A stretch of DNA of 64,000 bases from Tateyamaria pelophila (GTDB lineage: Bacteria; Pseudomonadota; Alphaproteobacteria; Rhodobacterales; Rhodobacteraceae): the NCBI RefSeq assembly GCF_019966495.1, contig NZ_JAIMIA010000006.1, positions 1 to 64,000 on the forward strand. Reading direction: 5' to 3'. Within the stretch, counting starts at the first letter, position 1. Every line of letters begins with the position of its first letter. The notes under the pieces are model-generated. The model ran no database searches, was not told the origin of the DNA, and saw only the letters and a program-made list of their open reading frames with translations. The translations under genes were made by a program, and so were the position numbers. Of this stretch, positions 150 to 59,611 are shown piece after piece.

Positions 150-833
150 CTAAACCACCACCCGCACCTCGCTCACATCTCCGTCCACCTCACGGCAGGC
201 GGCCAGGATGCGCCGTTCCAGATGGGTCTGCACATAAGCACCGTGAAACCGCGACGGCGCGCGAAGGGTCAGCCGCCCGCCTGCCCGCTCCACCCGTTCA
301 AGCCCTGCAATCCAACTGGCATAGAGCCCCGGGTCATTGCCATGCAGCACGGCCTGCGCCAGCGCCCACTCCGTGCCGGGGCTGATATCGGGCGCGCGCA
401 CGTTTCCTTTGACCGGCATGGGCACGACGGTATCATCAGCCGCATCCCCCTGCCCCATCCGCAATTCGAAATCCGGTCCGACCGCTGGCCATTGCGGCGC
501 CGTGTCGTCCAGCATGCGACCCAGATCGAGACCATATTGGGTCACCCGCCCCCGTGTTCCCTGACGGCGCACCACCAACCATCCGCGCGCGCGCAACAGG
601 GCCATCTCGCGTTTGACGGTACGTTCATCGACCGACCACAGCCGCGCAATCTCGCGTTGCCCAACGGCAAGTTCATCGCGCGCCCAGTTATAGCGCGCCG
701 TCACCAGCGTCATCAGCCGCAGGACCCGGCGTTGATCGTGTTTGCCCTGCGCCAGCGCATAGGCCCCCAAGGCTGTCAGAATATCATATTTGCGCGCAGA
801 GGCTCCCTGGCCAACCGGCCTTAGCGTTTGCAT
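150..833 (-). CDS. DnaA-like plasmid replication initiator
   Basis: The 227-residue protein is probably the replication initiator of this replicon. Residues about 15-100 look like a winged-helix DNA-binding region (MTLVTARYNWARDELAVG, then EIARLWSVDERTVKREMALL). The C-terminal 60 residues resemble the N-terminal domain of chromosomal DnaA (ASWIAGLERV, LTLRAPSRFHGAYV, then LERRILAACREV). No AAA+ ATPase motifs are present, as is known for the short DnaA-like plasmid initiators of Rhodobacterales. The gene is divergent from parAB across a repeat-containing spacer, the layout reported for DnaA-like replicons. ATG at 833 is the first in-frame start. Plasmid photosynthesis clusters in this group use the same initiator class, so the context agrees. 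The exact subgroup cannot be assigned by eye. Confidence 0.8.
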   Translation of the reverse strand: MQTLRPVGQGASARKYDILTALGAYALAQGKHDQRRVLRLMTLVTARYNWARDELAVGQREIARLWSVDERTVKREMALLRARGWLVVRRQGTRGRVTQYGLDLGRMLDDTAPQWPAVGPDFELRMGQGDAADDTVVPMPVKGNVRAPDISPGTEWALAQAVLHGNDPGLYASWIAGLERVERAGGRLTLRAPSRFHGAYVQTHLERRILAACREVDGDVSEVRVVV

Positions 834-1035: not shown

Positions 1036-1056
1036 GGGGACATGCAGGCTGTCCCC
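1036..1056. repeat. Inverted repeat with parS-like arms
   Basis: GGGGACA (1036-1042) is repeated inverted as TGTCCCC (1050-1056) with a 7-nt spacer. The arms equal the outer halves of the palindromes at 1298, 4174 and 5345. It could be a partial ParB site, an operator for the rep/par genes or a hairpin. Another single half, TGTCCCC, is at 1103-1109. Confidence 0.5.
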
Positions 1057-1220
1057 TGTTTGATCGCTTTTGTCACCCCATAGCTAGCGAAATGTTCCAA
1101 GCTGTCCCCCATATAAGCCGCCACATTCTAGAAAAACCTGGCATCCCGGCGAATCGCTCCCAGTCTTCAGACACCGTCAGATAAACAAGGCGTTCGGCAC
1201 GGTTACGAAATGATATTCCC

Positions 1221-1297: not shown

Positions 1298-1311
1298 GTC
1301 CCCGCGGGGAC
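1298..1311. promoter_or_regulatory. Candidate parS palindrome 1
   Basis: GTCCCCGCGGGGAC is a perfect 14-bp palindrome, 17 bp upstream of the parA start. The same core recurs as 18-bp and 20-bp perfect palindromes at 4174 and 5345. Three copies clustered within 4.1 kb around parAB, and none seen elsewhere in the window, point to a ParB-binding centromere site. Function is inferred from position and repetition. Confidence 0.6.
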
Positions 1312-1328
1312 AAACCCACAGGCAGACC

Positions 1329-2633
1329 ATGTTTACCCATTCAGACCTCGCCAAATTACAAGCCCAGTCGCTCAAGATGCAGGGCTTTATCCGGCAGCAG
1401 ACCTACTCGCCGCAAAACGAGAAGACGCTGCGCCGGTTTTCCAGCTGGGAAGTGGCGGAGCTGATCTTCAAGGCCAACCAATCCACCCTGCGCGGACGTC
1501 TTGCCGCCGATCCCTCCCTGCCCCAGGGCATCGTCGAAGAGGACGGACGCCAGCGCTGGTATTCCCTCGAAGAGATCAACGAACTGCGCCGCCGCATCAA
1601 GGTGAACCGCAAGTCGCTCATGCCGTACCGCCCGCCCGGAAAACGCGCGATCCGCGCCGCCATCGCCAACTTCAAGGGCGGGGCCGGCAAGTCGACGGTG
1701 GCGCTGCACTTTGCCCATGCCGCCGCCCTCGATGGCTACCGGGTGCTTTGTATCGATTTCGACCCGCAGGCCACGCTCAGCCATTCCATGGGCCTCTCGG
1801 ACGTGGCCGAAGAATACACGGTCTGGGGGATCATGGCGCGCGATCTGGCCAATGAAACCGACCGGATGAACTCTGCCATGCACGGCGCGGAATCGGGCGC
1901 CGCCCTGCCGCAACGCCGCCTGCCCGCCGCGATCACCGACATGGGGCTGTCGGACCTGCGCGCCTCGGATTTCATCAAGCCGACGAACTGGCCCACCATC
2001 GATATCGTGCCCTCCTGCGCCAACGCGGCCTTTGTCGAATTTGCCTCCGCCCAATACCGGCACCTCAACCCGGAATGGTCCTTCTTTGCGCCGGTGTCGC
2101 GCTTCCTCGATCAGCTCAGCCCCGACGCCTACGACCTGATTATTTTCGACTGCCCACCCGCCATCGGCTATCAATCCATGAATGCGGTTTTTGCCGCCGA
2201 TGTGCTCTATGTCCCTTCTGGCCCCGGCTATTGGGAATACGATTCCACGACGTCCTTCATCGGCCAGCTTGCCGAAGCGCTGGAGGATCTCAGCCGTTTC
2301 AACGGGCTTGTCCCCGAGGGGACGATGACACTGCCCAAGACATTTCTCGACTTGCGGTTCCTGCTGACGCGCTACGAGTCCGGCAACGAATTGCACCGGG
2401 CCATGCAGGGCGCGTTCCAGAAAGTGTTCGGGGATCGGGTCTGTGAACATCCGATCGAGATGACACGGGCCGTCGAACAATCGGGGCGCTTTTTATCGAG
2501 CATCTATGAAATCGACTACCGCGACATGACGCGCGAAACCTGGCGCCGCGCCCGCGCCTCGTTCGACCGCGCCTATGATGAATTCAAGACCAATTTGGGT
2601 GACGCCTGGGACAAGCTGGAGGATGAGGCATGA
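1329..2633 (+). CDS. parA: ParA-type plasmid partition ATPase
   Basis: A 434-residue P-loop ATPase that moves or positions plasmid copies together with ParB. The deviant Walker A motif FKGGAGKST is at about residues 115-123, followed by CIDFDPQATLS and, later, the Walker B-like DLIIFDCPPAIGY. The N-terminal 110 residues carry a helix-turn-helix-like region (FSSWEVAELIFKANQSTLRGRL), typical of the larger plasmid ParA/RepA proteins that also repress their own operon. The frame is open back to 1224, but ATG 1329 is preferred because a longer start would translate through the palindrome at 1298 and add 35 residues without family resemblance. The stop overlaps the parB start (ATGA), so the two are translationally coupled. 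Confidence 0.9.
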   Translation: MFTHSDLAKLQAQSLKMQGFIRQQTYSPQNEKTLRRFSSWEVAELIFKANQSTLRGRLAADPSLPQGIVEEDGRQRWYSLEEINELRRRIKVNRKSLMPYRPPGKRAIRAAIANFKGGAGKSTVALHFAHAAALDGYRVLCIDFDPQATLSHSMGLSDVAEEYTVWGIMARDLANETDRMNSAMHGAESGAALPQRRLPAAITDMGLSDLRASDFIKPTNWPTIDIVPSCANAAFVEFASAQYRHLNPEWSFFAPVSRFLDQLSPDAYDLIIFDCPPAIGYQSMNAVFAADVLYVPSGPGYWEYDSTTSFIGQLAEALEDLSRFNGLVPEGTMTLPKTFLDLRFLLTRYESGNELHRAMQGAFQKVFGDRVCEHPIEMTRAVEQSGRFLSSIYEIDYRDMTRETWRRARASFDRAYDEFKTNLGDAWDKLEDEA

Positions 2634-3685
2634 GCAAGCGCCGCGTATTCGATATCGACTTTGAACCGGAAGCCGATATGGCTTCCGACACCCCTGCCCC
2701 GGCGGATGAACCCGCACGCCGCGGTCCGATGGCCGCTGCAATTTCCGAGAACGCCGACGCGCTGACGGAACGCAAGTCCGCCGAAGCCGCGATCCGTGCC
2801 GAAAACGATCGGCTGGCCCATGAATACGTCTCGCTGAAAAAAGACGGCGCAATCGTTGCGCGCCTCCCCATCGACGACGTGAAAATGACCAAGCTGACCC
2901 GCGACCGGGGCAAGGGTGAGGATACCGAGTTCAACGAATTGAAAACCTCGATCCGCGACATCGGCCTGTCCAATCCGATCCAGGTCGAAGACACGGGGCA
3001 TGGCTATGAGCTGATCCAGGGCTACCGCCGTCTTGCGGCTTATAGGTCCCTTTACCAGCAAACCGGGGACAAGAAATTTTTGACCATTCCCGCCACATTG
3101 GTGGCCAGGGGAGAGGCGCTTGAAAACCTCTACCGCCGGATGGTCGACGAAAACCTCGTGCGGCGCGACATTTCCTTTGCGGAGATGGGCCAGCTTGCCT
3201 CGTCCTATGCCCGCGAAACCGGGGTTCCGCTCGGCGATGCCATCGCCACGCTCTACGCATCGGCGGGCCGACAGAAACGGAACTACATCGCCCATTTCAG
3301 CACGCTGATGGACCTGATCGGTGACAAGCTGACATTCCCCGAAGCGATCCCACGGTCGCTTGGCCTGAAGCTGATCAAGGGGATGGAGGAGTATCCGCGG
3401 ATGCGGCGGCATCTTGGCACTGTTCTGGATAATCACAAACCGCATAACGCCGCGGCGGAACTGGCCCTGTTGAACAAGGTTCTGGCTCCCAAGACGGTCG
3501 ATGGCCCGACGGGTCCGTCGACGTCCTCCAAGACCACGATCCGCTTGAACCGACGTTCCGGGAACGTGAAAGTGACCGGCGCACGCGGCAAGATCGAAGT
3601 CCAGATGAACAAGGATTTCGGTGCCGTGGATGCCCGAAAACTTGAGGCCGGCGTGCGGGCGCTATTGGATCAATTGGGTCTCTAA
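2630..3685 (+). CDS. parB: ParB-type plasmid partition protein
   Basis: A 351-residue ParB family protein that binds parS sites and stimulates ParA. The N-terminal 60 residues are probably disordered. The ParB/sulfiredoxin-like CTP-binding domain spans about residues 80-165 (FNELKTSIRDIGLSNPIQV, then GYELIQGYRRLAAYR, the family's GERR-like box, and ENLVRRDISFAEMGQLA). A helix-turn-helix KorB-like region follows (LGDAIATLYASAGRQKRNYI), and the C-terminal 80 residues would dimerise. It overlaps parA by 4 bp. The stop codon overlaps the end of convergent bchO by 3 bp, so the plasmid backbone joins the photosynthesis cluster with no spacer. Confidence 0.9.
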   Translation: MSKRRVFDIDFEPEADMASDTPAPADEPARRGPMAAAISENADALTERKSAEAAIRAENDRLAHEYVSLKKDGAIVARLPIDDVKMTKLTRDRGKGEDTEFNELKTSIRDIGLSNPIQVEDTGHGYELIQGYRRLAAYRSLYQQTGDKKFLTIPATLVARGEALENLYRRMVDENLVRRDISFAEMGQLASSYARETGVPLGDAIATLYASAGRQKRNYIAHFSTLMDLIGDKLTFPEAIPRSLGLKLIKGMEEYPRMRRHLGTVLDNHKPHNAAAELALLNKVLAPKTVDGPTGPSTSSKTTIRLNRRSGNVKVTGARGKIEVQMNKDFGAVDARKLEAGVRALLDQLGL

Positions 3686-4554
3686 ACACCATGTTTGGCA
3701 ATGATTGAACGAACAAGGTCCGCAGTCTCTGCGGGCCTTTCTTCGTGCAGCAGATGGCCCAGCCCCTGCATGTGATGCACCTGCGCTCCGGGGATCAGCC
3801 GTGCGGCGTCCTCGGACACTTCGGGCGCCACGGTCTTGTCCTTGTCACCGACGATGAAATGCACCGGGCCCTGATGATCCGGCAGGCTGTCCAGCAATGG
3901 GTTGAGTTGCCATTGCGCCATCATCAAAAGCGTCCCGTCCACATGATTTCTGTCCGCAACAAGGCGGCGGTAGAGATCGAGGCCCTCGGCATCCAGATCA
4001 GAGCCGGTTGAGCCGATCAGGGATTTGATCCGGTCCGGGTTGGACGACGCGCCGGAGAACAATCTGGCGCTGAACGGGATGGCAGCCAGCGCCTTGGCCA
4101 TGGCGGGAAACAACAGACCGGCGAGGCCTTTGAATTCGCTGAGGGCCGCGTTGATGCCGATCACCAAGGGCGACTGTCCCCGCGGGGACAGATCCGGCTG
4201 CGCGAGCCGCAGCGCGACCGCTCCGCCCGCCGAATGCCCGATGATCACATCCGGATCCCATCCTTCCTGCGCGCAAAGCGCGGCGATGTCCTGCGCCATG
4301 GCATCGAGCCCGGATCGGTGGCGTGCGCCAAGCTGGGTGAAGCCATGGCCGGGCAGGTCCAGCGCGACAACGTGATGGGTTTCCGCAAGGATGCGCAGAA
4401 GCTCCCTGTAGCTGTGTGTGGAGCCACCGGCCCCATGGAGCATGAGAATGGTTTTGCCTTCGCCTGCTTCCTGAACATGCCAGCGGTGAACCGGCCCCTG
4501 AACGCGCCGGGACAACGCCGCGTTGGGCCAGTCAGAGATCGTGCTCCAGTCCAT
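3682..4554 (-). CDS. bchO: BchO, Mg-chelatase-associated alpha/beta hydrolase
   Basis: A 290-residue alpha/beta-hydrolase fold protein, conserved beside bchD and bchI in phototrophic proteobacteria and thought to assist magnesium chelation; its precise reaction is unknown. Visible motifs are the oxyanion-loop HGAGGS (about residue 40), the nucleophile elbow GHSAGG (about 105-110) and a C-terminal GLGHLLHEE with the catalytic-type His. It is the last gene of the leftward crtA-bchI-bchD-bchO operon and starts 3 bp after the bchD stop. An oddity is the peptide LSPRGQ in the middle, which is encoded by a perfect 18-bp palindrome (4174-4191) matching the candidate parS sites. Confidence 0.88.
   Translation of the reverse strand: MDWSTISDWPNAALSRRVQGPVHRWHVQEAGEGKTILMLHGAGGSTHSYRELLRILAETHHVVALDLPGHGFTQLGARHRSGLDAMAQDIAALCAQEGWDPDVIIGHSAGGAVALRLAQPDLSPRGQSPLVIGINAALSEFKGLAGLLFPAMAKALAAIPFSARLFSGASSNPDRIKSLIGSTGSDLDAEGLDLYRRLVADRNHVDGTLLMMAQWQLNPLLDSLPDHQGPVHFIVGDKDKTVAPEVSEDAARLIPGAQVHHMQGLGHLLHEERPAETADLVRSIIAKHGV
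4174..4191. promoter_or_regulatory. Candidate parS palindrome 2, inside bchO
   Basis: CTGTCCCCGCGGGGACAG is a perfect 18-bp palindrome with the same core as the sites at 1298 and 5345. It is read in frame as Leu-Ser-Pro-Arg-Gly-Gln in bchO, 0.5 kb past parB. A ParB-binding role is inferred. Confidence 0.6.
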
Positions 4555-4557
4555 GGC

Positions 4558-6210
4558 TCACGCGTCCAGCGCGGCAGTGACAGCGTCGGTGAGGCGCTCT
4601 GCGTTTGCGCGTGGCAACGGGATGTAAGGCGCATTCATAATGCGCCCCAAGGCTTGCAATGCAGGTTGTGGGCGGTTGGACATGTCGAGGACCAGAGCGG
4701 AAATGCCGGACCCGCGCAGCACGCTCGCCATTTGCTCGGCGTCCGCACCGGCTTGCGCCCGGTTTGCGCTCCCGTCCAGAGCGATGTTCGCACGGCCGTC
4801 GGTAATCAGGATCACAGTCGGCGTCAGACCCTTGGAGCGCGATTGTTGTCCCAGCAGCATCGCGTGCTGGAGCCCGGATGCCAGCGGCGTGCCGCCGCCA
4901 CCGGGCAGGGCGGACAAGCGCCGTTTTGTCTGGACCAGCGACCGGGTGGGCGGCAACAGTGTCTCCGCTTCGGTGCCGCGGAAGGCGATCAGTGCAACAT
5001 GATCGCGGCTTGCATAGGCTTCGGCCAGAAGCAATTCGATCGCGCCCTTGGCTTCGCCCAATCGGGACATTGCGGCAGAGCCGGAAGCGTCTACGCAAAA
5101 GATCAACAGGCGGTCGGATTGCTCGGCATAGCGCTTGAGGCGGATGTCGGACGGGCGGATCAGGAGGCCAGTGCGTCCGGGCTGCTGCTGCCGCCTGAGT
5201 GGCTGCCAAGGGGCGGCGGCGCGCAGGGTCGCCACAAGATCGATGCGCGCGCTGCTTTCCAGCCGACCGGGACGAGAGGGCAGGGGGCGTCCGCGCCGGT
5301 TGCCCGTGCGGGTTTGTCCTGCCCCGGCGCCGCCCGCGCTTCGGCTTGTCCCCGCGGGGACAAGCCCCTCCAGCAGACCGGGCGGCAACAACGCCTTGAC
5401 CGCCGCGATCAGCATGTCGCCGTCCGGCAGTTCAAGCTCATCGCTTTGTTGCTGCCCGTCCGCGTCATCCGGTTCGGGCGCGGGGTCTTGCTCGGGCGGG
5501 GGGGGATCGTCGGCCTCATCTTCTTGCGGAACGGTTGTTGCGCGGTGAGGAAAGACCAGCGCGGCGGCCGCTTCCACATCGCCTTCCATCAATGCATCCC
5601 GGCCATTCAGGCGCGCATGGGCCCGCGCCGCATGCAAGGCCAGCGTTGGCGCGCGCAGAGAGTGGATGCCGAAAGCTGCCGCCAGTTCGGTAAGCTGGAT
5701 CAGCGCATCGGCAATCTGGATCGGTGCGCCCGCCGCGATGGTCAGGGGGGCCGCCCAGTTGCGCGGGCGACGCCCCACGGGTTCGATGTGAAAGGCGAGC
5801 CGTTCGGAGAGGGCCGCCGCAACATGTTCGTCCGGCTCTGCGCCCTCGTCGATGGCCAAAATCCCCTGTGTCAGAGACTGATCCATCAAGCTCGCGAGCT
5901 TGGCTGCGAGTGTCGGGGTGCAGCGTTCGGCCATCGGGAGGATAACAATGCAAGGATTTGCAAAGAACCCTTTTGTTTCAATGATTTGAGAGGAGGCAAG
6001 TGTCGCGCTGAGATCAATGCCGCCAAAAAGCTGCTCATCGGAGATGGTGCCGGGCATCTTGCGCAGGGGCAGGGGGCTGTCGAAGCTGGCAAGCATCGCG
6101 TCCCGGTCAGGGCTTGCGCGCATGCGGATAACGGCACCGCCCAGTCCCGCAGGATCGACGGCCAGCAAGCGGAGCGCAAGGGCGGCCATATGCCAGCTGT
6201 GATCACTCAT
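4558..6210 (-). CDS. bchD: Magnesium chelatase subunit D
   Basis: A 550-residue subunit of the Mg-protoporphyrin IX chelatase (BchHID), which inserts Mg2+ at the first committed step of bacteriochlorophyll synthesis. The N-terminal part is AAA-like without an intact Walker A, as is normal for BchD. A Pro/Asp/Glu-rich linker lies at about residues 240-275 (ADDPPPPEQDPAPEP). The C-terminal integrin-I/VWA domain has the MIDAS motif DASGS at about residue 373, followed by GGGGTPLASGL and ITDGRANIAL. It forms an operon with bchI upstream (93-bp gap) and bchO downstream (3 bp). A 20-bp palindrome matching the putative parS encodes Leu-Val-Pro-Ala-Gly-Thr just after the acidic linker. Confidence 0.95.
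   Translation of the reverse strand: MSDHSWHMAALALRLLAVDPAGLGGAVIRMRASPDRDAMLASFDSPLPLRKMPGTISDEQLFGGIDLSATLASSQIIETKGFFANPCIVILPMAERCTPTLAAKLASLMDQSLTQGILAIDEGAEPDEHVAAALSERLAFHIEPVGRRPRNWAAPLTIAAGAPIQIADALIQLTELAAAFGIHSLRAPTLALHAARAHARLNGRDALMEGDVEAAAALVFPHRATTVPQEDEADDPPPPEQDPAPEPDDADGQQQSDELELPDGDMLIAAVKALLPPGLLEGLVPAGTSRSAGGAGAGQTRTGNRRGRPLPSRPGRLESSARIDLVATLRAAAPWQPLRRQQQPGRTGLLIRPSDIRLKRYAEQSDRLLIFCVDASGSAAMSRLGEAKGAIELLLAEAYASRDHVALIAFRGTEAETLLPPTRSLVQTKRRLSALPGGGGTPLASGLQHAMLLGQQSRSKGLTPTVILITDGRANIALDGSANRAQAGADAEQMASVLRGSGISALVLDMSNRPQPALQALGRIMNAPYIPLPRANAERLTDAVTAALDA
5345..5364. promoter_or_regulatory. Candidate parS palindrome 3, inside bchD
   Basis: CTTGTCCCCGCGGGGACAAG is a perfect 20-bp palindrome, the longest of the three copies. 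It falls in the loop between the acidic linker and the VWA domain of BchD, a position that should tolerate extra residues. ParB binding is inferred. Confidence 0.6.
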
Positions 6211-6303
6211 GGGGCAGGGCAGGGGGTGCGTGGGTTGGTCCCTCTGACGCCAACCCGTAAGGCGGAGGCATCCTCCGCCATGCCTCAGTCGCCACAGGCA
6301 CCA

Positions 6304-7311
6304 TCAGCCAAGCACCGTTTCGACGGTGCGGGCCACGCGGGTGCCGCTTCCGGCCTCGTCCAACGGGTCGCGGCGCAAACGGTGGCTGAGGGTGATGGGC
6401 GCGATGGCCTTGAGGTGGTCGCGAGTCAGCACCTTGTCCTTCTGATAGGCGGCCAGGGCGCGGGCGGCCCGCAGCAGGGTCAATTCGCCCCGCAGACCGT
6501 CGCTGCCTAAAGCGATGCAAAGCTCTGCGCAGTCGTGCAGGATGGCGTCAGGCGTTTCCACCGCTGGCAGGGCCTTGCGGGCAGCCAGGATCTTGCGTCG
6601 GATCGTGGCATCTTTCTTGGAGTAGATTTCCATGAAGCTGTCGAAATCCGTCTCGAAGGCATCGCGGCGCTTGATCACTTCGATCCGCTGGGCCACGTCG
6701 TTGGGGCTGCGCACCTCTACCGAAAGGCCAAAGCGGTCCAGCAATTGCGGGCGCAATTCGCCTTCTTCGGGGTTGCCGGAACCGACCAGAACAAAGCGCG
6801 CGGGATGGCGGATCGAGAGCCCTTCGCGCTCGACCACGTTTTCGCCCGATTGCGCCACGTCGAGCAGCAGATCGACGATGTGGTCTTCCAGCAGATTGAC
6901 CTCGTCGATGTAGAGATAGCCGCGATTGGCCCGCGCCAGCAGGCCCGGCTCAAACGCCTTTTCGCCCCGCGTCAGAGCCCGTTCGATATCGAGTGCGCCG
7001 ACGACCCGGTCTTCGGTCGCGCCGAGGGGCAGGTCGATCACCGGGGTCGGCTTGTTGACGGCCTTTGTGTTGGCGATCTCCGCCCAATCGGGGCATTCGT
7101 CATATGTGGCGGCGTTGATCGGGCACCCCGCCACGGCCTTGATCGGCGGCAAGAGGGCGGCCAGCGCCCGCACGGCGGTGGATTTGCCCGTGCCGCGATC
7201 CCCGAACACCAACACGCCGCCGATTCCGGGATCAATCGCAGTCAGGATCATCGCCTGTTTCATATCGGTCTGGCCGACGATTGCGGAAAAGGGGAAGGGG
7301 GTCTTGCTCAT
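6304..7311 (-). CDS. bchI: Magnesium chelatase subunit I (AAA+ ATPase)
   Basis: A 335-residue AAA+ motor of the Mg chelatase, which forms rings with BchD and drives Mg2+ insertion by BchH. Walker A is GDRGTGKST (about residues 38-46), Walker B is LYIDEVNLL (about 145) and a sensor-type segment VGSGNPEEGELRPQLLDRFG follows. The start at 7311 (MSKTPFPFSAIVGQ) matches the family N-terminus; an upstream in-frame start at 7404 would add 31 unrelated residues inside crtA. The start overlaps the crtA stop by 4 bp. bchH is not in the window. Confidence 0.96.
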   Translation of the reverse strand: MSKTPFPFSAIVGQTDMKQAMILTAIDPGIGGVLVFGDRGTGKSTAVRALAALLPPIKAVAGCPINAATYDECPDWAEIANTKAVNKPTPVIDLPLGATEDRVVGALDIERALTRGEKAFEPGLLARANRGYLYIDEVNLLEDHIVDLLLDVAQSGENVVEREGLSIRHPARFVLVGSGNPEEGELRPQLLDRFGLSVEVRSPNDVAQRIEVIKRRDAFETDFDSFMEIYSKKDATIRRKILAARKALPAVETPDAILHDCAELCIALGSDGLRGELTLLRAARALAAYQKDKVLTRDHLKAIAPITLSHRLRRDPLDEAGSGTRVARTVETVLG

Positions 7312-8122: not shown

Positions 8123-9646
8123 CGCATTGAACATATCGAATCGACCGAAAGTGGGACAGCAAACCGGGCAATCGTGATTGGTGCCGGTCTGGGCGGTCTT
8201 GCATCAGCCATGCGCCTGGGCGCAAAGGGCTATAAAGTCACCGTCATCGACAAGCTGGATGTGCCGGGAGGGCGGGGTTCCGCCATCTGGCAGGACGGCT
8301 ATCGCTTTGACCTTGGCCCAACCATCGTGACGGTCCCGCAGTTGTACAAAGAGCTGTGGGCCGCCTGTGGCAGGGATTTTGCCAGCGATGTCGAGTTGAA
8401 GTCCCTCGACCCATTTTACGAGATCCGCTGGCCGGACGGGACCAAGTTCGTGGCCCAGCAGGACACCGACAAGATGCGCGCAGAAGTGGCCAAGATTGAG
8501 CCGCGTGACGTGGCCGGTTTCGACAAGTTCCTCAAGGACAGCGAGCGTCGGTACTGGTTCGGTTTCGAGGATCTGGGGCGCCGCTCCATGCACAAGCTGT
8601 GGGATCTGATCGAGGTCTTGCCCACTTTTGTGCGTTTACGGGCGGACCGGTCGGTTTACGCCCATGTGGCCAAGCGGTTTCGCAATGAAAAGCTGCGCAT
8701 GGCGTTTTCGTTCCATCCTTTATTCATCGGTGGGGACCCGTGCCATGTGACGTCGATGTATATTCTGGTCAGCTATCTCGAAAAGGAATTTGGCGTCCAT
8801 TATGCGATGGGCGGTGTGGCCGGTATGGCCCAGCGGATGGCCGAAGTGATCGAGGATCAGGGCGGCACATTGCTGATGCAGACCGAGGTGGACGAGATCG
8901 TCGTCCGCGATGGCAAAGTGCGCGGTGTGCGCCTGGGGTCGGGTCTTGAGCTTGGAGCCGATGTTGTCGTCAGCAACGCCGATGTGGCCCACACCTATGA
9001 CAGCCTGATGCGTTCCGCCCCCAAAAAGCGCTGGACGCCCAAGCGCCTCAAGAAGACCCGGTATTCGATGAGCCTGTTCGTCTGGTATTTCGGAACGAAG
9101 GGCACTCGGGGCGACTGGGCCGATGTGGGGCATCACACGATTCTGAATGCGCCGCGCTATACCGGCCTGCTGGACGATATCTTCATGAAGGGCAAGCTGG
9201 CGGACGACATGAGCCTTTACGTCCATCGGCCTTCCGTAACTGATCCGACCGTTGCGCCCAAAGGCGACGACACCTTCTATGTCCTGAGCCCGGTGCCCCA
9301 TCTGGGCCATGGTGGCGTAGACTGGAAAACAGAAGAAGCGGCTTACAAGGCCAAGATGCTCAAGGTTCTCGAAGACCAGCTTTTGCCCGGATTAGGGTCG
9401 AAAATTGTCAGTGAAAAGGTGTTCACCCCCGAGACGTTCCAGGATCGGTACCTGTCTAAACACGGGTCCGGTTTCTCGATCGAGCCGCGCATTTTCCAAA
9501 GCGCGTGGTTCCGACCCCATAACATCTCGGAAGAGGCAGAGGGCCTGTATCTGGCCGGGGCAGGGACCCACCCGGGCGCCGGTGTGCCGGGCGTCATCTC
9601 GACGGCCGAAGTGCTGAGCCAGCTTGTACCGGATGCCGTCAAATGA
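8117..9646 (+). CDS. crtI: Phytoene desaturase CrtI
   Basis: A 509-residue FAD-dependent desaturase converting phytoene to neurosporene/lycopene-level carotenes. The N-terminal dinucleotide-binding motif is VIGAGLGGLASAMRLGAKGY (from about residue 21), followed by the family signature PGGRGS and GPTIVTVP. The C-terminal bacterial phytoene-dehydrogenase signature GAGTHPGAGVPGV is at about 480-492. Start ATG 8117 has a GGTGAG-like Shine-Dalgarno 3-4 bp before it, and the N-terminus fits the family within a few residues. The stop overlaps the crtB start (ATGATG), so translation is coupled. Expression is probably repressed by PpsR. Confidence 0.96.
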   Translation: MTRIEHIESTESGTANRAIVIGAGLGGLASAMRLGAKGYKVTVIDKLDVPGGRGSAIWQDGYRFDLGPTIVTVPQLYKELWAACGRDFASDVELKSLDPFYEIRWPDGTKFVAQQDTDKMRAEVAKIEPRDVAGFDKFLKDSERRYWFGFEDLGRRSMHKLWDLIEVLPTFVRLRADRSVYAHVAKRFRNEKLRMAFSFHPLFIGGDPCHVTSMYILVSYLEKEFGVHYAMGGVAGMAQRMAEVIEDQGGTLLMQTEVDEIVVRDGKVRGVRLGSGLELGADVVVSNADVAHTYDSLMRSAPKKRWTPKRLKKTRYSMSLFVWYFGTKGTRGDWADVGHHTILNAPRYTGLLDDIFMKGKLADDMSLYVHRPSVTDPTVAPKGDDTFYVLSPVPHLGHGGVDWKTEEAAYKAKMLKVLEDQLLPGLGSKIVSEKVFTPETFQDRYLSKHGSGFSIEPRIFQSAWFRPHNISEEAEGLYLAGAGTHPGAGVPGVISTAEVLSQLVPDAVK

Positions 9647-31681: not shown

Positions 31682-32407
31682 TCAGTAGGTAGCCCGCCCG
31701 CCCGACTGATCAAAGCAGAATCCGGTGGTAAAGCTCGCTTCTTCTGACGCCAGCCAACAGGCCATGGCGGCAATTTCATTGACCGTGCCAAAGCGGCCCA
31801 TGGGGATTTTGGATTGCATGAAGTCGATGTGCTCCTGCGTCATCTGGTCAAAGATCGCGGTATGCACGGCGGCGGGCGCAATAGCGTTTGCGGTGACGCC
31901 GGATGTGGCCAGTTCCTTGCCCAGCGATTTGGTCAGCCCGATGACACCGGCTTTGGACGTGGAATAGGCCGAGGCGTTGGGGTTGCCCTCTTTGCCCGCA
32001 ATGGACGCGATGTTGACGATCCGGCCCCAGCCCTTGGCCTGCATGATCGGTGCTGCGGCGCGGCAGCAATAAAAGATCGCATTCAGGTTCAGGTCATGCA
32101 CCTTCAGCCAGTCGTCGATCGGATAGTCCCATGTGGTGGTGTTGGGCCCGGTGATCCCGGCGGAACAGACAAGGATATCGGGATTGGTCTCTGCCATAGC
32201 AGCGGCGACGGCCGCCGCATCGGTTACATCGATCTGGCGGGTGCTTGTCCGATCGCGGTCGACCGCCGCAAGTGCGCCGGGGTCGATATCCCAGACTTCG
32301 ACGCTGCCTCCTTCGGCGGCGATACGTGTCGCGATGCCTTCACCAAGCCCGGCTGCCCCGCCGGTGATGACCGCATGGCGGCCCTTGAATCGGTTTTCAA
32401 AAATCAT
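31682..32407 (-). CDS. SDR-family oxidoreductase
   Basis: A 241-residue SDR with TGGAAGLGEG at the N-terminus, an acidic residue after beta2 (VEVWDIDPGAL, NAD-type), CSAG in place of NNAG, Ser in NIASIAG and Tyr-x-x-x-Lys in AYSTSKAG. Tail FDQSGGRATY is typical of FabG-like enzymes. It lies downstream of the aldehyde dehydrogenase and peptide-transporter genes on the same strand (137-bp gap), so it may belong to that unit. A role as keto-deoxy-fuconate dehydrogenase for the fucose genes at 55 kb is possible but unproven. Confidence 0.8.
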   Translation of the reverse strand: MIFENRFKGRHAVITGGAAGLGEGIATRIAAEGGSVEVWDIDPGALAAVDRDRTSTRQIDVTDAAAVAAAMAETNPDILVCSAGITGPNTTTWDYPIDDWLKVHDLNLNAIFYCCRAAAPIMQAKGWGRIVNIASIAGKEGNPNASAYSTSKAGVIGLTKSLGKELATSGVTANAIAPAAVHTAIFDQMTQEHIDFMQSKIPMGRFGTVNEIAAMACWLASEEASFTTGFCFDQSGGRATY

Positions 32408-59493: not shown

Positions 59494-59611
59494 TTTGGGT
59501 GTGCCTATGACGATATGTGTTCAATATATCAAAATAGGCCCAAAATGAACAGGTATTCCACGGCGGTTGGTGTTCATGCGCCGCGCCGCTTTGGGTATAC
59601 CCAAAATGAAC
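59488..59611. promoter_or_regulatory. res-like recombination/operator site
   Basis: Three exact copies of a 12-mer: GTTCATTTTGGG (59488-59499) inverted relative to CCCAAAATGAAC at 59539-59550 and 59600-59611. The last copy is part of a perfect 16-bp palindrome TTTGGGTATACCCAAA (59590-59605). The first covers the resolvase start codon. The 124-bp array is the size of a resolvase res site and probably also autoregulates the gene. Confidence 0.75.

Follow-up and report, generated by a model that had tools for sequence, protein, structure and literature searches.

The first 64 kb of a 98.8-kb contig of Tateyamaria pelophila (NZ_JAIMIA010000006.1, positions 1 to 64,000; this whole stretch is referred to below as the window) belong to a photosynthesis plasmid of the Tateyamaria type, which has a DnaA-like replicase and a parAB partition module. 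Beside and within parA, and again within the bacteriochlorophyll genes bchO and bchD, lie short palindromes with one common core. This raises the question of whether the palindromes are the centromere of the plasmid, as a first-pass annotation of the window had proposed, and, if so, why part of a centromere should be written in photosynthesis genes. From comparison of sequences we conclude that the palindromes are very probably the parS sites of a ParABS system on a DnaA-like I photosynthesis plasmid. The ParB of this plasmid probably also acts on the chromosome, in most of the congeneric genomes that have it and in at least two further lineages.

The par locus and its palindromes

The palindromes of the window, given without strand, and the genes around them are the following.

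1298..1311, exact 14-bp parS-like palindrome (palindrome 1), GTCCCCGCGGGGAC, just upstream of parA
2310..2323, parS-like palindrome with one mismatch, GTCCCCGAGGGGAC, inside parA at offset 981 nt, read GLVPEGT
4174..4191, 18-bp palindrome in bchO, read LSPRGQ, with the core GTCCCCGCGGGGAC at 4176-4189
5343..5366, 24-bp palindrome GGCTTGTCCCCGCGGGGACAAGCC in bchD, read LVPAGT, with the core GTCCCCGCGGGGAC at 5348-5361
150..833, minus strand, RepA, DnaA-like plasmid replicase (Pfam DnaA_N 23.6 bits, slightly below the cut-off of 24.6)
1329..2633, plus strand, parA, Walker-type partition ATPase (AAA_31, E-value 5.6e-24; CbiA)
2630..3685, plus strand, parB, predicted CTPase and centromere-binding protein (Pfam ParB_N, Foldseek)
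3682..4554, minus strand, bchO, alpha/beta hydrolase of bacteriochlorophyll synthesis (annotated BchO in relatives)
4558..6210, minus strand, bchD, magnesium chelatase subunit D (annotated likewise in relatives)

The first-pass annotation had described three palindromes sharing one core, two of them read in frame in BchO and BchD, and all of this is confirmed. The lengths of 14 and 18 bp were right, but the third palindrome, given as 20 bp, is perfect over 24 bp; similarly, the statement that the 64 kb contain no further copy holds for exact copies but overlooked the one-mismatch copy in parA. That the sites are more than chance is borne out, as a first-order Markov model predicts 0.001 exact copies of GTCCCCGCGGGGAC in 64 kb and 0.09 in 5.65 Mb, and the probability that three random sites all lie within 4.06 kb is ~1.6e-6. 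In the whole assembly from which the window is taken (5.65 Mb, 280 contigs), the four copies listed are the only ones with at most one mismatch. Other perfect 16-bp palindromes in the window, CAAGCTCGCGAGCTTG at 5887-5902 (in bchD) and TTTGGGTATACCCAAA at 59590-59605, are unrelated to the parS core.

The replicase gene is divergent from parAB, which is the arrangement of DnaA-like I plasmids, and the order rep-parA-parB recurs on Rhodobacterales plasmids, where rep is annotated as 'DnaA N-terminal domain-containing protein'. The type 'I' label derives from the report on T. omphalii DOK1-4, as far as its accessible text goes (PMC6739100). No repABC operon with RepC is found at the par locus, the part of the window covered in this respect, where the replicase adjoining parAB is DnaA-like. 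The Walker-type parA overlaps parB by four bases, as befits a ParABS module, and is 91-94% identical to orthologues in 13 other genomes of the genus. The nearest solved structures to an AlphaFold model of the window ParB are ParB, Noc and KorB (Foldseek), and on this predicted model we count the protein as having the CTPase fold, helix-turn-helix and C-terminal domain of a ParB.

The palindrome and ParB occur together

Our genus set comprises 20 Tateyamaria genomes, the window's included. The exact palindrome is present in 14 of them, and a ParB orthologue (at least 70% identity) is found in exactly those 14 and in none of the other six. In the family, 34 of 394 genomes contain the 16-mer TGTCCCCGCGGGGACA, and all 33 of these besides the window's have a ParB homologue at an E-value of 7e-53 or better. 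In every one of the 23 genomes with one to five located sites, a site lies within ~0.6 kb of parB on the same contig. The palindromes are thus clustered at parAB and co-occur with ParB, as in a ParABS system. The neighbouring bases also follow a preference common to plasmid and chromosomal sites: A stands at position +1 in 93-98% of the half-sites of chromosomes and photosynthesis plasmids and in 87% of those of other plasmids, and position +2 is T in only 3-4%, on plasmids and chromosomes alike.

The parA-parB-bchO-bchD junction is also present on T. omphalii pDOK1-4-3, Roseobacter litoralis pRLO149_94, R. ponti p1 and Thalassococcus pS3A. These four and one Aliiroseovarius plasmid, searched whole, contain 12, 6, 6, 8 and 3 copies at up to one mismatch, all at the par or par-bch region except two, both on pS3A (NZ_CP022304.1). 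The latter are one exact and one one-mismatch copy at 32079 and 34668, ~30 kb from parAB. On the T. omphalii DOK1-4 plasmid, 10 sites are exact. A site shortly upstream of parA recurs on many related plasmids. DnaA-like plasmids whose par region is free of photosynthesis genes carry the palindrome as well, with 16 exact copies at parAB in Leisingera (L313), 18 in Alloyangia (L318) and two to four copies on plasmids of Phaeobacter, Parasedimentitalea, Sulfitobacter and Salipiger. The arrays in L313 and L318 look like centromeres and span 2054-6112 and 3256-6449, respectively. The copy inside parA is at the identical offset of 981 nt in the window, L005, L313 and L318. On three Paracoccus plasmids the palindrome is changed to CTTCCCCGCGGGGAAG, which is found at the 5' end of parB and also either towards its 3' end or behind it, a position that varies between the plasmids; two of these plasmids have a hybrid palindrome, GTCCCCGCGGGGAA, near the parB end, and the P. 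aminovorans plasmid has a one-mismatch form near parA offset 981.

Conservation of the sites inside genes

Homologues of bchO were sought in 84,980 species genomes, and the best 80 of 146 relatives, together with the window and four plasmids, gave 85 loci, 36 with a window-type parB nearby and 49 without, where 'without' refers to at most ~21 kb of DNA and not to the whole replicon. The bchO site (at most one mismatch, same codon column) is present in 32 of the 36 loci beside parAB and in one of the 49 others (Fisher p 7e-18; this and the other p-values overstate independence, as the genomes are related by descent and shared ancestry is not corrected for). The palindrome behaves as the first-pass annotation supposed for a parS of the plasmid ParB.

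In the loci with parB, the codons of the bchO site are conserved at 0.97-1.00, against a gene mean of 0.53. The LVPAGT site of bchD (at most one mismatch) is found in 29 of 33 bchD rows beside parAB, and its codons GTC, GGG and ACA are conserved at 1.00 and CCC at 0.93 (gene mean 0.56). For parA the site (at most one mismatch) is present in 33 of 34 rows, with site codons at 0.91-1.00 and a gene mean of 0.65. In all three genes the site codons rank among the most conserved degenerate codons. As the first-pass annotation had predicted for BchO and BchD, the encoded residues are absent or altered in most of the homologues without parAB that are among the alignment rows listed. Because the bchO site is tied to an adjacent parAB and its codons are nearly frozen, selection at the parA, bchO and bchD sites appears to act on the DNA rather than on the peptide.

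One locus without an adjacent parB, L136 on a 584-kb contig, contains an exact copy and two copies with one mismatch, distributed over bchD and bchO, at 8798, 9191 and 10366. These copies are likely the decaying scar of a recent plasmid life of the cluster. The cluster can therefore leave the plasmid, and the suggestion of the first-pass annotation that the sites help to fix it on this replicon is not sustained.

Sites on the chromosomes of sister species

The four copies of the window's genome are confined to the par locus, as had been foreseen for a plasmid centromere, but this does not hold for the sister species, since 12 of the 19 other genomes of the genus have 24-102 exact copies each. 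Outside the par-bchD locus, the 14 ParB-bearing genomes have 17 copies (G018), 48-91 copies (11 genomes) or none (two genomes); three of the par loci are incomplete, and a few plasmid copies are possibly counted here as outside the locus. Frequent chromosomal copies had been named beforehand as an argument against parS. We read them instead as an enlarged set of ParB sites, because within the genus they are found only in genomes with this ParB and many of them are conserved in place.

The evidence for conservation comes from 50 of 76 sites fetched from T. omphalii KCTC 12333 (G001) and 50 of 63 from T. omphalii DOK1-4 (G002). For 28 of the 50 sites in KCTC 12333, the identical 14-mer is found at the orthologous base in DOK1-4, in flanks that are 73-90% identical, where ~4% would be expected at 80% identity. 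One chromosomal site was aligned in 19 genomes (G015, which gave a partial match only, was left out): it is perfect in each of the 11 genomes that have more than 50 copies, and none of the other eight has it. There is no indel at the site in this alignment, and insertion of the palindrome as a mobile unit is rejected on the evidence of this one locus. Around the chromosomal copies no common flanks were found beyond two neighbouring bases on each side, i.e., they are bare motifs. As copies of the plasmid's site are found all over the chromosome and are conserved where this was examined, ParB probably also works there.

The 50 sites listed for the closed DOK1-4 chromosome are distributed uniformly from origin to terminus (Kolmogorov-Smirnov p 0.46), with the origin placed by what we take to be the chromosomal parS, at 3.30 Mb. 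A terminus exclusion of the kind seen with Noc was considered for this strain and rejected, as there is no terminus gap. The number of copies on the plasmid and the number in the genome outside the locus are correlated (Spearman 0.80); part of this is due to incomplete loci (L107, L109, L111) and the genomes are related, and we regard the correlation as suggestive.

ParB genes without their ParA

Two genomes of other genera, G082 and G265, have 89 exact and 64 copies, respectively, and a parB set in a different context. In G082 parB follows bchI-bchD-bchO with no parA there, and the two genes beyond it have no Pfam family. In G265 (L269, contig C13) parB adjoins a ParA-family gene and a repABC-type repC (Pfam RP-C, E-value 1.6e-56), on a contig that also carries bchO and bchD. 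Here the DnaA-like replication and partition module seems to have been replaced, with parB alone retained.

An orthologue of the window ParA was found in neither genome; the best matches, at 60% identity (G082) and 47% over 135 residues (G265), appear to belong to other plasmid types. In both orphan ParBs the CTPase boxes and the helix-turn-helix region are retained, whereas the conserved stretch of 60 residues at the N-terminus, which presumably contacts ParA, is missing (the start codons of the two genes are uncertain). A ParB-like protein without a ParA partner is one mark of Noc. A cognate ParA was not found in G082 and G265, but is present in the window and in the 13 other ParB-bearing genomes of the genus.

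Orthology of the G082 and G265 sites with the Tateyamaria sites was considered as well. There are shared neighbourhoods, but none of the sites compared, which are a part of the total, lies on the same base, so the sites of these lineages appear to be separate acquisitions. In the genus of G265, 12 of 15 genomes are without any copy. Another member, G414, has 41 copies, many of which form doublets or triplets whose starts are spaced by 23-45 bp. We lean slightly towards the view that, on more than one occasion, the centromere protein of a photosynthesis plasmid was taken over as an organiser of DNA across the chromosome, with the orphans as intermediates on the way to a Noc-like protein.

Alternative explanations

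The chromosomal copies could instead be operators, with ParB acting as a transcription regulator in the manner of KorB or VirB. In favor of this, sites between genes are enriched, with 24/50 and 20/50 in the two T. omphalii sets against ~13% non-coding sequence. Against it, divergent, promoter-type gaps hold only 2/50 and 3/50 of the sites, ~2- to 3-fold over a baseline of 2.2%, and co-directional gaps are similarly ~2- to 3-fold enriched, whereas convergent gaps hold 11/50 and 5/50 against 1.5% expected, ~7- to 15-fold (baselines are from 18 stretches of 12 kb of G002, with simple home-made gene calls). In addition, about half of the sites lie inside genes (26/50 and 30/50, where the baseline is 87%), and all reading frames are represented among them. 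A promoter-operator role as the main use of the chromosomal sites is therefore rejected, and we consider the operator explanation as a whole unlikely.

A second alternative starts from the presumed origin of the plasmid, which lies in the gap between rep and parA and has the following elements.

1036..1056, no strand, everted pair of parS half-sites, GGGGACA-N7-TGTCCCC, presumed origin element
1103..1109, plus strand, another half-site (TGTCCCC) of the presumed origin, at +53 bp relative to the one at 1050

Since the half-site is conserved in the presumed origin, the replicase could read the same motif, and the palindromes would then be sites of the DnaA-like replicase, for copy control or titration, with ParB a mere neighbour. 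The everted, 14-bp-spaced pair is indeed a conserved element, present in 17 of the 32 rep-parA gaps listed for DnaA-like plasmids, and the +53 spacing of the further half-site recurs on several related plasmids. Two observations speak against this. The Paracoccus plasmids retain the TGTCCCC heptamer ~228 bp upstream of parA despite their changed palindrome (the everted pair was not found upstream of parA there), and the contigs of G082 and G265 that carry parB and the palindromes have, as far as these contigs go, neither a match to the window RepA nor the everted element. We give the replicase little chance of being the protein that the palindromes serve. In the window the half-site element sits 226-293 bp upstream of parA, and cross-talk between replication and partition is possible.

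It is very improbable that the palindrome is a tiny dispersed repeat, REP-like (repetitive extragenic palindromic) or mobile, with no link to partition. Its dispersal over whole genomes in several lineages and the closely spaced doublets and triplets of G414 would suit a repeat, but the bare flanks, the lack of an insertion at the locus aligned across 19 genomes, the restriction within the genus to genomes with this ParB and the identity at orthologous bases all speak against it. That BchO and BchD need LSPRGQ and LVPAGT, with the palindrome as a by-product, has next to no probability: the residues are almost invariant among the five plasmid-borne homologues aligned first, but besides their variation in homologues without parAB, the synonymous positions are frozen as well, chromosomal copies of the motif are translated in each of the three frames (VPAGT, SPRGQ, CPRGD), and in L116 and L138, Tateyamaria clusters without parAB, BchD retains LVP-GT though the palindrome is lost.

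The parS reading has observations against it too. The window ParB scores 25.1 bits for ParB_N, slightly below the Pfam cut-off of 26.3 that the T. omphalii orthologue passes (26.8 bits), and its AlphaFold model is weak overall (mean predicted local distance difference test 71, predicted template modelling score 0.37). Seven of 29 site-negative genomes drawn from the top of the same family list have a clear ParB orthologue (43-50% identity), which argues against a strict one-to-one link between site and ParB; in these seven the sites may be changed as in Paracoccus. The remaining site-negative genomes gave four weak matches and, in 18 cases, none. The bchO site is missing in four of the 36 loci with adjacent parAB (L144, L160, L168, L171). 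An exact site lies between bchO and parB in each of the four, and three have further sites in parA and parB. Two loci without parAB (L151, L174) hold a stray one-mismatch copy outside bchO and bchD, and an extra site towards the 5' end of parB, present in 18 of 36 rows, lacks frozen codons (CCC 0.53). The TGTCCCC half-site is, as described, also a conserved element of the presumed origin. Finally, for the extension to the chromosome, the window's genome and G014 have ParB and not a single copy outside the par locus.

Discussion

With the palindromes read as parS, we suggest that ParB dimers recognise TGTCCCCGCGGGGACA and would load at the sites as clamps dependent on cytidine triphosphate, spreading into flanking DNA, and that ParA would thereby move the plasmid copies apart. 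The binding of ParB, the loading of clamps and the partition function of the sites are predicted here from the likeness to ParABS. The centromere would be a scattered field reaching from upstream of parA, through parA, into bchO and bchD, and at the bchO and bchD sites the DNA sequence would be held by selection while the encoded peptide is tolerated by the protein.

Sites inside genes have precedents. In repABC replicons of Rhodobacterales, open reading frames located downstream of repC (cas genes) contain several parS, and it has been proposed that parS in coding sequence is under positive selection, according to the accessible part of the report (PMC9040568). Judged by that part, these sites resemble those of the window in being palindromic, at partition genes and in some cases intragenic. 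They differ in that the window belongs to another replicon family, with sites in photosynthesis genes and parA and one bchO codon column common to 32 loci, and in that the sites of its sister species reach the chromosome. The DnaA-like I replication module is known from a fixed central place in the photosynthesis cluster, with Tateyamaria strains among the examples (PMC6052148, PMC6739100), and the window plasmid is of this same type; neither text, in its available parts, mentions palindromes or parB.

For sites beyond the replicon, Noc of Bacillus subtilis, a protein of the ParB family with ~70 palindromic sites around the chromosome, is the nearest comparison (PMC4331003, as available in part). 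The orphan ParBs of G082 and G265, for which no cognate ParA was found and which lack the conserved N-terminal stretch, may be Noc-like in this respect. Unlike Noc, the ParB of T. omphalii is still plasmid-borne with ParA, and its sites leave no gap at the terminus. In Vibrio cholerae, to go by the accessible text (PMC3141006), one of ten parS2 sites of ParB2 lies outside chromosome II and one in a replication-control element, and extra parS2 copies titrate ParB2; against this single off-replicon site stand the 17-91 that we count beyond the par locus. Orphan proteins of the ParB-CTPase kind, encoded apart from parAB operons, have been described as widespread (PMC12704722), in a paper whose main text, as far as it is accessible, does not contain the word 'rhodobacter'. 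The orphans described here differ in lying in or near a photosynthesis cluster, in a genome with matching sites. A literature search, whose reach did not extend to most subscription papers, found no paper that contains GTCCCCGCGGGGAC or describes it as a centromere, and none in which the ParB of a plasmid has sites all over the chromosome. Intragenic parS has been put forward earlier for repABC replicons, and the fixed place of the DnaA-like I module is already known.

The DnaA-like plasmid family of Rhodobacterales now has a predicted centromere sequence. As this centromere is partly written in bchO and bchD, it offers a candidate physical reason for the fixed place of the partition module in the photosynthesis cluster, and sites such as those of L136 may act as scars that mark clusters once borne on a plasmid. 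If the reading of the chromosomal copies is true, the Tateyamaria ParB and the host chromosome share dozens of conserved sites, tying the plasmid to its host, and these bacteria, among them culturable marine hosts such as T. omphalii, would offer living intermediates for studying how the ParB of a plasmid might turn into a factor that, like Noc, works across the whole chromosome.

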